IMG/VR virus record: IMGVR_UViG_3300049737_000147
Coordinates: 1-35,363 of that record
Origin: a virus
DNA length: 35,363 nt
Strand: one strand, 5' to 3'
The position numbers and the translations under genes are program-made. The notes under the pieces were generated by a model, which saw only the letters and a program-made list of their open reading frames with translations, did no database searches and was not told the origin of the DNA. The first letter of the stretch is position 1. Each line of letters opens with the position of its first letter. Below are positions 4,369 to 13,341 of the stretch, in pieces.

Positions 4369-4376
4369 AACTATAC

Positions 4377-4405
4377 ATTATATAGGTGATATGGGGTTTT
4401 GTCAA
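4377..4405 (-). promoter_or_regulatory. Leftward sigma70 promoter, perfect consensus
   Basis: On the minus strand TTGACA (4405-4400) is followed after exactly 17 nt by TATAAT (4382-4377). Both boxes match consensus completely. Transcription would begin near 4370, essentially at the ATG of the small terminase (4368), which implies a leaderless message. Host RNA polymerase could read packaging genes from the very start of infection. Confidence 0.85.
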
Positions 4406-4446: not shown

Positions 4447-4475
4447 TTGACAAAACAAGAATCCAAGTATATAAT
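4447..4475 (+). promoter_or_regulatory. Rightward sigma70 promoter, perfect consensus
   Basis: TTGACA (4447-4452), 17-nt spacer, TATAAT (4470-4475). Its -35 box is about 41 bp from that of the leftward promoter, back to back. The expected start near 4482 would put a small stem (GTAGCCC-acc-GGGTAC, 4483-4498) at the extreme 5' end of the transcript. The leader to the first gene would then be about 540 nt and packed with hairpins. Confidence 0.85.
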
Positions 4476-4603
4476 AGACTATGTAGCCCACCGGGTACAT
4501 ATACATTTGCATAGCCGCCTTTTACCTTTAAGGTCTTTGAAGTGGGGCGACAAACTGGTTGACATTCAGAATCTTTGAAAATGTAGAACTATGAGTATAT
4601 ATA

Positions 4604-4620
4604 GGGGGGATGGGGGGTGG
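4604..4620 (+). other. G-run, possible quadruplex
   Basis: GGGGGGATGGGGGGTGG is two runs of six G and a final GG in an otherwise AT-rich region, just upstream of the palindrome cluster. A G-quadruplex could form on the plus strand or in the leader RNA. Only the base composition is seen; no function is implied. Confidence 0.35.
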
Positions 4621-4627
4621 TCACCTG

Positions 4628-4874
4628 CCTAGCCCTTCAAAGCTTTGAAGGGCTAGGAAGCCTAGAATACTTTAAAGTCTTGCAGACTTTAAAGTATTCT
4701 AGAAATCTACCGCCAGAGTCTCTAAAGATCTCTAAGATCTTTAGAGACTCTGGTTGCCAGACTCAGAAATCTTTAAAAATCTTTAGAGATTTTTAAAGAT
4801 TTTTAAAAAATCTATAAAAATCAAAGATTTTTTTAGATTTCACAGGCGCGTGTTGTAAAAACCTTAAGGTTTTT
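4628..4874. repeat. Cluster of six long unrelated palindromes
   Basis: Six inverted repeats stand head to tail: 4628-4657 (30-nt perfect palindrome, no loop); 4662-4702 (19-bp arms, 3-nt loop TGC); 4713-4753 (19-bp arms, loop CTA); 4767-4802 (16-bp arms, loop TTAG); 4808-4840 (15-bp arms with one mismatch, loop AAA); and 4857-4874 (18-nt perfect palindrome). Their sequences differ, so they are not copies of one repeat; only the geometry is shared. They lie inside the presumed leader of the rightward operon and could form strong RNA hairpins or DNA cruciforms. Confidence 0.9.
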
Positions 4875-4894
4875 AAGCCTAGCCAAATCGCTTA

Positions 4895-4950
4895 GTACTT
4901 CAAAACTTTAAAACCCCTCACTTGTGAGGGTTTTAAAGTTTATGAAGTAC
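4895..4950. repeat. Leader hairpin, copy A
   Basis: Two 27-nt arms flank a TT loop, with one bulged C (CCCC against GGG) and one small internal mismatch. The central 31 nt (4907-4937) are identical to 5731-5761 in copy B. A run of A before the GC stem and TTTT after it would also suit a weak bidirectional terminator or attenuator. It ends 72 nt before the ATG of the first early gene. Confidence 0.85.
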
Positions 4951-5004
4951 TTAAAGGCCCTCCGAAGCCGCTTCAAGCCGAAGGCTTGTGGCAACCAAAA
5001 CTTA

Positions 5005-5019
5005 CAATTCGGAGAATTG
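5005..5019 (+). promoter_or_regulatory. Ribosome-binding site held in a small hairpin
   Basis: CAATTC-GGA-GAATTG places the GGAG Shine-Dalgarno (5011-5014) in the 3-nt loop and closing base of a 6-bp stem, 8 nt before the ATG at 5023. A second hairpin with a 3-nt loop lies just upstream (CAAGCC-GAA-GGCTTG, 4974-4988). The arrangement decides the start codon and could make initiation depend on folding or on a bound protein. Confidence 0.6.
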
Positions 5020-5022
5020 ACT

Positions 5023-5442
5023 ATGGCGAAGCCAGACTTCAGCAAGATCCCAGCCTCTAAAGAGGCTTCACCCCGACAGATCTCAGCGATTGCAAATCGC
5101 TTTGCGAAGCTAACGAATCCAGAGGATTCGTGGATGCTGACCAAGAAATACACCGCAGTTCTTTACAGATTCCAAAAGGAATCTGGGAAGAACTTGACTC
5201 ACGGCGACATCCAGAAGTTCTTCAAAGTCTCTAAAGTTCCTAAGAACTTTAGTGACTTGCTCAGTACCGCTGAAGAGACTCCAAAGGAGTCTCCAAAGCC
5301 TTCAAAGAAGGCTCCCACTAAGACTTCTACGAAGTCTTCCAAGACACCGCCAAAAGTCTCTGAGGCTTCAGAGCTAAAAGCTCTGAAGAAGCAAGTCGCA
5401 GACTTGACTGCCGCCGTCCAGTTACTTCTGAAGAACTCTTAA
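5023..5442 (+). CDS. Hairpin-saturated early gene, small basic protein, paralogue 1
   Basis: The product has 139 residues. The first 85 form a compact helical domain with RQISAIANRFAKL, YTAVLYRFQKESG, LTHGDIQKFFKVSKVPKNF as landmarks. The rest is a Lys/Ser/Thr/Pro-rich tail (around 90-115, histone-H1-like) ending in a predicted helix, LKALKKQVADLTAAVQLLLK, suited to coiled-coil pairing. The N-terminal domain is clearly related to the product of 5833-6096. I recognise no named family. A nucleic-acid-binding role is inferred from the basic tail. The start at 5023 has a good GGAG and matches the paralogue. The coding sequence itself carries eleven perfect inverted repeats, and the stop codon lies inside a 24-nt palindrome. 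It is the first gene after the rightward promoter and is followed by a strong terminator. Confidence 0.85.
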   Translation: MAKPDFSKIPASKEASPRQISAIANRFAKLTNPEDSWMLTKKYTAVLYRFQKESGKNLTHGDIQKFFKVSKVPKNFSDLLSTAEETPKESPKPSKKAPTKTSTKSSKTPPKVSEASELKALKKQVADLTAAVQLLLKNS

Positions 5443-5452
5443 GAGTTCTTCA
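5052..5452 (+). repeat. Eleven perfect inverted repeats inside one coding sequence
   Basis: Positions, with arm length and loop: 5052-5067 (7, loop AA), 5085-5101 (7, GCA), 5114-5130 (7, AGA), 5166-5185 (8, AAAA), 5231-5252 (9, CTAA), 5275-5293 (8, AAA), 5297-5313 (7, AAA), 5320-5338 (8, TAC), 5366-5388 (10, AAA), 5392-5406 (6, GCA), and 5429-5452 (12, no loop, contains the stop codon). All arms are perfectly complementary and no two hairpins share a sequence. The series continues the cluster upstream of the gene without a break. Confidence 0.92.
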
Positions 5453-5464
5453 AAGTCTTCAAAG

Positions 5465-5489
5465 ACCCCAGCTTTGCTGGGGTTTTTTT
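5465..5489 (+). terminator. Intrinsic terminator after the hairpin-saturated gene
   Basis: ACCCCAGC-TTT-GCTGGGGT forms an 8-bp GC-rich stem with a 3-nt loop, followed by seven T (5483-5489). It lies 22 nt after the stop codon and should end most transcripts from the early promoter, or act as an attenuator before the next gene. Confidence 0.9.
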
Positions 5490-5522
5490 ATTTATAAACC
5501 CTAAACTCTAAAGGAGTTTTGT

Positions 5523-5702: not shown

Positions 5703-5793
5703 ACCGACTGAGGCTTTAGGGATTCTTAGTTTTAAAACCCCTCACTTGTGAGGGTTTTAAAACTTAGAAGCCCTTAGAGGACTGCCAGCCGGT
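5703..5793. repeat. Leader hairpin, copy B
   Basis: The inner stem pairs 5730-5745 with 5748-5762 around a TT loop, again with one extra C on the left arm. Its central 31 nt are identical to copy A. Weaker pairing continues outwards to ACCG (5703) against CGGT (5793). After the hairpin both copies continue with a related spacer (CCAAAACTT ... TTGGAGG here; CCAAAACTT ... CGGAG in copy A) to a start codon about 70 nt downstream. This shows that leader and gene were duplicated together. Confidence 0.85.
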
Positions 5794-5832
5794 TCTCATC
5801 CACCCAAAACTTCATTGCACTTGGAGGTGCTT

Positions 5833-6096
5833 ATGTCTCAGTTCGATTACACTACTCTCGACCCCAACAAACCTGCTTCATACCGTCAGTTTAACGGTGT
5901 TGCATATTACTTTGCTCAGTTGCACACCAAAGGTGACAAGACAAAAACATACATGGCAACTCGTATGTTCAAAGCTATCTTGTACAAGTTTTATAACGAG
6001 CAAGATATTCAAATGACTCATGGCGAGGCTCAAAAGTTCTTCAAAGCCAAGCGAGTTCCTGCTCAGTTTAAGAAGTTAATTACTATCCGTAAGTAA
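5833..6096 (+). CDS. Small protein, paralogue 2 of the early hairpin-saturated gene
   Basis: This 87-aa product starts at the ATG at 5833 behind GGAGGT. It aligns along its whole length with the N-terminal domain of the 5023-5442 product: PASYRQFNGVAYYFAQL against EASPRQISAIANRFAKL, FKAILYKF against YTAVLYRF, and MTHGEAQKFFKAKRVPAQF against LTHGDIQKFFKVSKVPKNF. The Lys-rich tail and C-terminal helix of paralogue 1 are missing. Its coding DNA has no inverted repeat with arms of 7 bp or more, which makes it a natural control. Function is unknown; the conserved THG--QKFFK block may be the functional core. Confidence 0.85.
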   Translation: MSQFDYTTLDPNKPASYRQFNGVAYYFAQLHTKGDKTKTYMATRMFKAILYKFYNEQDIQMTHGEAQKFFKAKRVPAQFKKLITIRK

Positions 6097-11171: not shown

Positions 11172-11266
11172 AACATTTTATTGCTACGATGCCTGAGTAC
11201 TGGTATGCGTTAGCTATAATTGTTTTTTTTAGCATTGGTTTTATGATAGGAGATTATATAAAATGA
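11153..11266 (+). CDS. Small single-span membrane protein, 37 aa
   Basis: ATG at 11153 lies inside the end of the upstream gene behind GGGGAGG (12 nt away); the TGA (11264-11266) overlaps the next ATG. The product has a polar, basic N-terminus (MDKERVKHF) and one hydrophobic helix (YWYALAIIVFFSIGFMIGDY). Its position, overlapped by genes on both sides, favours a real gene. It could be an inner-membrane accessory protein or a small holin-like protein, with no direct evidence for either. Confidence 0.6.
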   Translation: MDKERVKHFIATMPEYWYALAIIVFFSIGFMIGDYIK

Positions 11267-11490
11267 AAAAGTATATTCATGTTAATCAACACAAAATTCG
11301 TGCGAACAAAAAGAATGGAACAGACGACCCAGTTATAACAATTAAAACTGGTAGAACTAATACATATTGTCACGAGGTTGAAATACTTGGTAACAGCGTG
11401 TTAAGATATAGCGGGAACGACAAGCCTATTCTCTCGTGTGGTGCGCGTGTTGTTATTGAAACTAATTCTGATATTAAAATTGTGAGGTAG
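11263..11490 (+). CDS. Conserved phage-type small protein, 75 aa
   Basis: ATG at 11263 in an ATGA overlap, with AGGAGATTATATAA upstream. The product reads KKYIHVNQHKIRANKKNGTD, DPVITIKTGRTNTYCHEVEI, and later SCGARVVIETNSDIKI. The IHVNQH, P-(I/L)T-KT and SCGARV-IET blocks match a short, strand-rich protein I know from cyanophage genomes; function is unknown. A compact beta fold is likely. Confidence 0.75.
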   Translation: MKKYIHVNQHKIRANKKNGTDDPVITIKTGRTNTYCHEVEILGNSVLRYSGNDKPILSCGARVVIETNSDIKIVR

Positions 11491-13123: not shown

Positions 13124-13330
13124 ATGGAGGAAGATAAGTTTAATATTGAAGATGCTGTGTGTCGGGCATTTATTTTGTCGTTAGGTACTAGCCTACCGTC
13201 ACCCAGCACAGTCCAGAATATGATTAGTTGGATAAAAATTCAGGCTCGTAAAGAGCAAGAACAATTATCGACTGATTATGTGTATAGTTGTATCCCTCGT
13301 TACATTAATTTTATGTTTAATAAATCTTAG
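13124..13330 (+). CDS. Hypothetical protein, 68 aa
   Basis: ATG at 13124 behind AGGAGAAAGC. Helical protein (DAVCRAFILSLGTSLPSPST; MISWIKIQARKEQEQLSTDY). No family recognised; immediately upstream of the SSB gene, so probably part of the replication operon. Confidence 0.72.
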   Translation: MEEDKFNIEDAVCRAFILSLGTSLPSPSTVQNMISWIKIQARKEQEQLSTDYVYSCIPRYINFMFNKS

Positions 13331-13341
13331 GAGATTTAATT

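Follow-up and report, generated by a model that had tools for sequence, protein, structure and literature searches.

A row of about twenty hairpins through the leader and coding sequence of the first early gene in an HMO-2011-like phage

The virus record analyzed here, a stretch of 35,363 bases that we call the window, carries an array of about twenty hairpins that extends from the leader of the first early gene through that gene (gene A) to its terminator (Table 1). The array is real and restricted to one locus, and chance is excluded as its source. There are ten inverted repeats with arms of at least 9 bp in the window, and all of them lie within 4628-5452. When compared with dinucleotide shuffles, the folding z-score is about -17.6 for the leader and -10.7 for gene A, against -0.25 for gene B, and the MFE is -415 kcal/mol over 1011 nt. 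None of 300 synonymous codon shuffles of gene A reached the observed hairpin content; eight stems of at least 7 bp are observed in the gene, while synonymous recodings have a mean of 0.3. The excess over synonymous shuffles holds as well for two relatives (L009 and L035), and it is absent from gene B and two other window genes. The Rfam 15 covariance models, applied at gathering score, gave no match across the whole window, and the sub-threshold matches are generic hairpins that occur on both strands. Our overall reading, which we offer as a possibility that is well short of probable, is that the locus is a previously undescribed cassette in which the entire first transcript is laid out as generic hairpins, mended by template switching and free in sequence, and that this cassette is exchanged and sometimes lost among close HMO-2011-type phages.

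The minus strand of the window encodes the terminase and tail side, and the plus strand encodes the replication genes, which include a T7-like primase-helicase, a family A DNA polymerase, a Cas4-like nuclease, a ribonucleotide reductase, and a T7 endonuclease I-like gene. The isolates nearest by terminase are the Pelagibacter phages HTVC115P (66%), HTVC103P, and HTVC104P, followed by Roseobacter CRP-1 and Puniceispirillum HMO-2011, and the window phage is therefore assigned to the HMO-2011-like marine phages. It resembles HTVC115P, HTVC103P, CRP-1, and HMO-2011 in its TerL (47-66% identical), in the divergent arrangement of terminase and early genes, and in an element E-like sequence; unlike the window phage, the isolates of this type that were examined have no array at the homologous place. 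We note that the two near-consensus sigma-70 promoters between the terminase and the early genes point apart. The plus-strand promoter, P1, is retained in every relative that has this region, including L036, which is discussed below. The array begins immediately downstream of element E, which is found with early cassettes of types I, II, III, X, N, and IV and, in a looser form, in HTVC103P, HTVC115P, and CRP-1. This element may be an activated promoter, an origin, or a packaging site. Depending on the phage, its run consists mainly of G or mainly of C, as though the strand were indifferent.

Table 1. Promoters, conserved element, hairpins, and genes of the early region, in window positions
Feature	Position	Strand	Remarks
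Divergent sigma-70-like promoter, terminase/late side	4370-4405	-	Read from the sequence
P1, sigma-70-like promoter (TTGACA-17-TATAAT)	4447-4475	+	Read from the sequence; its predicted transcript covers the array and gene A
Element E: GTTGACAYYCA-N-TGAGTATATATA, then G-run or C-run, then CCTGC (ATGG/CCTGC)	4558-4628	.	Conserved in relatives
H1, 30-nt perfect palindrome	4628-4657	+	Loop in relatives GAA or its inverse TTC
H2, 19-bp arms, loop of 3	4662-4702	+	Loop TGC in the window; GTA and TAC in relatives
H3, 19-bp arms, loop of 3	4713-4753	+	Loop CTA in the window; TAG in 7/19 relatives
H4, 16-bp arms, loop of 4	4767-4802	+	Multi-base compensatory changes
H5, 15-bp arms with one T.T mismatch, loop of 3	4808-4840	+	
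H6, 20-nt palindrome	4856-4875	+	
Leader hairpin A, long and imperfect, 28-nt arms, 82% complementary	4894-4951	+	Kept in array-less L036/L037
Small hairpin CAAGCC-GAA-GGCTTG	4974-4988	+	
Ribosome-binding-site hairpin CAATTC-GGA-GAATTG, Shine-Dalgarno in loop	5005-5019	+	Stem covaries in L035 (CAAATC-GGA-GATTTG)
Gene A, 139 aa: four-helix domain, K/S/T/P-rich linker, C-terminal helix	5023-5442	+	Predicted model
Ten hairpins inside the gene A coding sequence	5052-5406	+	
Hairpin across the gene A stop codon	5429-5452	+	Weaker form remains in L036
Intrinsic terminator, end of the array (hairpin 5465-5483)	5465-5490	+	
Gene B, 87 aa, paralogue of the gene A domain	5833-6096	+	No in-gene hairpins

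A sequence-only reading of this DNA had named six leader palindromes plus leader hairpin A, and all of these are present at 4628-4951. It had also treated leader and gene as a single coherent array of unrelated palindromes with short loops, and our analysis agrees. The palindrome that it gave as 18 nt is there, but its length is 20 nt. The spacing of one unit roughly every 40 bp is true as an average, but the distance between neighboring hairpin centers ranges from 39 to 57 nt in the leader and from 21 to 66 nt in the gene. Likewise, the array does continue across the start codon as claimed, but its style changes there, as arms of 15-19 bp give way to arms of 6-11 bp and loops closed mostly by T-A to loops closed mostly by C-G; one of the in-gene hairpins is CTTCAGAGCT. 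As assessed with a broken-stick model, the tiling of the array is not clearly more regular than random (P 0.05-0.7). By eye, the hairpin centers show no helical phasing in the leader of the window, and a rough look for contig ends clustering in the array gave no clear pattern.

Relative contigs were gathered by searches with gene A, gene B, and the DNA pattern of the upstream element. The array recurs in viral metagenomes, in related contigs with changed sequences, and among the close relatives that were found, most have it and appear to hold it by selection. Every contig with a type I gene A and sufficient sequence has the array, with stems that are altered yet still paired. In L035, the gene A protein is 43% identical, the number of leader hairpins is equal, and the in-gene hairpins are at matching codon positions with mostly different sequences; in L009, the first in-gene hairpin is swapped for a different hairpin that codes for other residues. 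The type II cassette, in which gene A is 26-32% identical, has a row of five or six short hairpins immediately downstream of this conserved element, and the type III cassette (L173, L175, L177) has its own palindrome row at that place. In both of these types, an apparent separate promoter for gene A lies downstream of the hairpin row, which is therefore not simply the leader of gene A there.

The array is also missing from some relatives. L036 and L037 keep the promoters, the element, the leader length, leader hairpin A, and a gene A with the C-terminal helix, and L036, whose contig reaches far enough, keeps the terminator as well. There is no excess structure in their leader or gene (z -0.7 and -1.1), and the array is nowhere in the 47.6-kb contig of L036. 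In the more distant L150 and L153, the element is present but no hairpin row follows it. Array-less relatives that retain the layout, which the sequence-only reading had named as the finding that would count against it, thus exist in L036 and L037 and, more distantly, in L150 and L153; the array is therefore dispensable for the layout of the locus in some lineages. There is no array in the homologous region of HTVC115P, HTVC103P, or CRP-1, and no hairpin cluster in the parts examined of HMO-2011, HTVC033P, and CRP-738 (bases 1-50,000 of each) and of HTVC104P (4,400 to the end), the terminase-early junction of HTVC033P falling outside the part examined. The TerL tree intermixes the cassette types: some type I branches contain type II members, and L036 and L037 group with type II and L035. 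The cassette is therefore exchanged, or changes, faster than the backbone, and the data suggest frequent cassette exchange at the terminase-early junction. The L036 state is most simply read as a loss of the array because the window phage and L035 share hairpin positions while the gene A of L036 groups with that of L035 (a grouping with weak support in the gene A tree). We note that types I, II, X, and N have terminases that are about 90-95% identical, yet their early cassettes are very different.

The arms and loops suggest that template switching in replication keeps mending the arms. Over 140 unique hairpins, including terminators, only 47 of the 1641 stem pairs (2.9%) are not Watson-Crick pairs. 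Among otherwise equal stems, the H3 loop is CTA in 12 genomes and TAG in 7, and loops are also seen as exact reverse complements in H2 (GTA/TAC), in H1 (GAA/TTC), and in an in-gene stem (AAA/TTT and AGA/TCT). Inversions occur in all four stems that have arms of at least 10 bp and variable loops; in these, exact reverse complements make up 5 of 16 loop pairs, and 5 of the 9 pairs that differ at all three bases. The 13 shorter stems have loop inversions in 0 of 24 loop pairs. For the whole set, 5 of the 10 loop pairs that differ at all three bases are reverse complements, where about 1 in 27 is expected (binomial P about 1.5e-5, calculated from loop pairs that are not fully independent). In one comparison (L006 with L008), a single inverted loop (CTA/TAG) is the sole difference over about 2.7 kb around the array. 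The loops were read from assemblies, in which phasing needs an assembler word longer than the arm; most current assemblers satisfy this for arms of 10-19 bp.

Arm homogenization together with spacer inversion is a described signature of template switching, and in yeast, the spacer inversions altered amino acids and were found only where the arms exceeded 9 bp (PMC8604942); template switching has also been proposed to create and maintain RNA stems (PMC8794818). The array shares with the inverted repeats of yeast coding genes and of RNA genes in these studies its near-perfect arms, its multi-base compensatory changes, the restriction of spacer inversion to long arms, in this case longer than 9 bp, and the amino acid changes inside a coding gene. 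It differs from those repeats in consisting of about twenty consecutive repeats at one phage locus and in bearing separate signs of selection on folding. We propose that DNA polymerase, by switching templates in replication, would recopy a mutated arm from its partner arm and would sometimes flip the short loop. Because the loops flip on a short time scale, such a process could be read directly from metagenomic reads.

Besides template switching, selection appears to act on folding. Among 12 type I leaders, divergence is 6.9% in stems and 20.4% in linkers and loops, although linkers are harder to align and the true ratio of linker to stem divergence may be smaller. Neutral homogenization predicts stems that change as fast as linkers, so with slower stems, mutation alone seems to be insufficient. 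Loop inversion is absent from the in-gene stems with arms of 7-8 bp, which are nonetheless near-perfect and far above the synonymous expectation. A 5'-C...G-3' pair closes the loop of 30 of the 35 unique in-gene hairpins, compared with C-G in 62 of 248 stem pairs overall, and the closing pair is never G-C or A-T, a bias that speaks for a folded single strand. The ribosome-binding-site hairpin keeps a constant GGA loop while its stem covaries between the window phage and L035.

As to which strand is selected, RNA is favored by the end of the array at the terminator of the first transcript, by the density of the in-gene hairpins, and by the Shine-Dalgarno hairpin. A comparison of type I with types II and III puts the highest density of in-gene hairpins in the cassette whose gene A lacks a visible promoter and must depend on read-through from P1 across the array. 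A DNA element such as an origin is favored by the GC-skew minimum, the strand-indifferent G/C run, and the retained noncoding stretch. RNA and DNA could not be separated by their mismatches, because the independent cases are too few and two counts leaned in opposite directions: over the 140 unique hairpins including terminators, G.T was counted 15 times and A.C 6 times, both being rare, while an alignment-based count gave 43 G.T and 74 A.C.

In the reading that we prefer, the short inverted repeats within and next to the first early gene of this HMO-2011-like phage would form a cassette, retained as a folded single strand that is useful at the locus, the likeliest strand being the first transcript. 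All the way from leader start to terminator, this RNA would fold into local hairpins of a generic kind with hardly a gap between them, displaying the Shine-Dalgarno in a loop, and the row would shield an early, long-untranslated message from nucleases, from Rho, or from pairing with other nucleic acids. We judge it somewhat short of an even bet that the first transcript folds into such a row and functions at the RNA level; that selection acts on the RNA and not on the DNA, and that it does so for the protection gained, we infer. Comparison among the phages supports the array itself, its persistence with changing sequence, the template-switch footprints, the slower change of stems than of linkers, the loop-closing bias, and the losses in some lineages. 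Against this reading stand the tolerated mismatches, which show no strand bias that singles out RNA, the existence of L036 and L037, which live without the array, the position of the type II and III rows upstream of an apparent gene A promoter, the tiling, which is not significantly regular, and the absence of an Rfam match. None of the data names a nuclease, Rho, or any other partner.

The retention of element E and of a roughly 300-500-bp noncoding stretch even after loss of the array would also be expected if the array were part of an AT-rich, noncoding replication origin beside the conserved element, with hairpins on displaced single-stranded DNA guiding or protecting initiation and template switching as a by-product. 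The cumulative GC skew has its minimum at about 3 to 6 kb, around the array, and its maximum near 22 kb, but this signal is confounded since skew follows the direction of transcription. That loops invert shows contact between the arms at the DNA level, and the cassette is swapped among near-identical backbones as origin/initiator modules are; however, the hairpin-less L036, L150, and HTVC103P keep the region and presumably replicate, there is neither an iteron consensus nor a recognizable initiator, gene A having no structural match with E below 0.1, and a hairpin with the Shine-Dalgarno in its loop is an RNA feature. An origin is unlikely in our estimate, although a serious contender. We consider it rather unlikely that the array has no function at all and that template switching in a heavily transcribed, replication-prone stretch perfects quasi-palindromes that drift then carries. 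The homogenized arms and inverted loops, the lack of any sequence common to the palindromes, and the array-less state of L036 and L037, in which no replacement is seen, all fit this, as does quasi-palindrome mutation in yeast, which is transcription-associated and was seen only under high transcription (PMC3820800). Neutral homogenization should not slow the stems, yet they change one-third as fast as the linkers; nor does it account for short in-gene hairpins that are near-perfect without inversion and far above synonymous expectation, for the C-G closing bias and the covarying ribosome-binding-site hairpin, which indicate folding, or for the confinement to one locus, which template switching alone leaves unexplained.

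Several alternative forms of the cassette, including none, on close backbones are what a host interaction predicts, and the row might act as a sponge or decoy RNA that titrates a host factor binding double strands or hairpins, such as an RNase or the sensor of a defense system. Generic hairpins with free loops and sequences fit a target that is read by shape, and the locus is the first to be expressed; but the data point to no partner, RNase III-type enzymes would need longer arms than the 7-8 bp found inside the gene, and Rfam holds no comparable RNA family, and we regard a sponge as improbable. The decoy suggested in the sequence-only reading is not supported in a form that reads loops, since the loops vary and invert. 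Its suggestion of a multi-site regulator is not supported in a sequence-specific form, as the palindrome sequences differ within and between phages. Operators for a repressor, or hairpin promoters like those of the N4 virion RNA polymerase, are accordingly a highly improbable reading: the palindromes do adjoin the gene for a possibly oligomeric small protein and have 3-nt loops like N4 promoters, but stems and loops lack a consensus, the loops invert freely, and the large proteins examined are terminase, primase-helicase, DNA polymerase, ribonucleotide reductase, tail, lysis, or unassigned proteins, none of them matching an RNA polymerase family. The operator, N4-promoter, and REP readings were rejected because no sequence or loop is shared.

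Several known systems resemble the array in part. The RNase III sites of T7 early mRNA are processing hairpins that are few, irregular, and intergenic; they have in common with the array an early transcript, repeated hairpins, and an untranslated leader, but the array runs through coding sequence to the terminator and lacks a processing signature. A lambda-type origin lies inside the initiator gene, and the lambda iterons share one sequence that is bound by O. The likeness there is in repeats in or beside the gene for a small early protein and in a module exchanged among related phages, whereas the array has no iteron consensus, its palindromes being mutually different and changing between relatives, and the gene A model gave no match to an initiator. 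REP/BIME elements are dispersed copies of one palindrome family, unlike this array, which occupies one locus and has units unlike each other. The hairpin promoters of the phage N4 virion RNA polymerase (reviewed in PMC4496689) are likewise small hairpins with 3-nt loops in early-region DNA, but the loops of the array are not conserved, and the large proteins of the window include no RNA polymerase match. No description of hairpin arrays in phage early regions was found in the literature searched. The mutational mechanism is thus known, while an array of this size that runs through a leader and a coding gene and is apparently exchanged and lost as a cassette was not found described. It would be a natural case of template switching and selection jointly holding a long series of stems, where earlier work dealt with single hairpins and RNA genes. 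Because the array shapes a coding gene, with other amino acids encoded at the same hairpin position, it would also show how far structure overrides coding, and its function could be sought by a ready comparison, since near-identical backbones carry related cassettes that either have or lack the array.

The predicted model of gene A has a mean pLDDT of 71.5; a fold search against PDB and BFVD returned nothing with E below 0.1, and no Pfam family scored above cut-off. Together, the paralogues gene A and gene B make up a small helical protein family that heads the early region and has no known relatives beyond these phages; with the patterns used, it was not found in 84,980 prokaryote genomes. 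A long hairpin with CCCCTCACTTGTGAGGG at its tip is present in two copies, one before gene A (4894-4951) and one before gene B (5718-5774); similar hairpins precede other early genes of relatives, and the long hairpin persists in array-less phages. In several plus-strand genes, the Shine-Dalgarno lies within or at the loop of a short hairpin before the start (5005-5019, 5503-5519, 5818-5831, 13324-13341). The type III contigs L173, L174, L175, and L177 contain several copies of one conserved palindrome, TATATATCTCAAAGGTTTTTGAGAGATATA, across the early region downstream of gene A. The T7 endonuclease I-like gene of this palindrome-rich phage (19149-19628; PF05367, slightly below cut-off) belongs to a type of enzyme that cuts cruciforms. 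Finally, a 200-bp patch of the window (11266-11462) has 78% DNA identity to Methylophilales phage Melnitz, the two phages being otherwise dissimilar.
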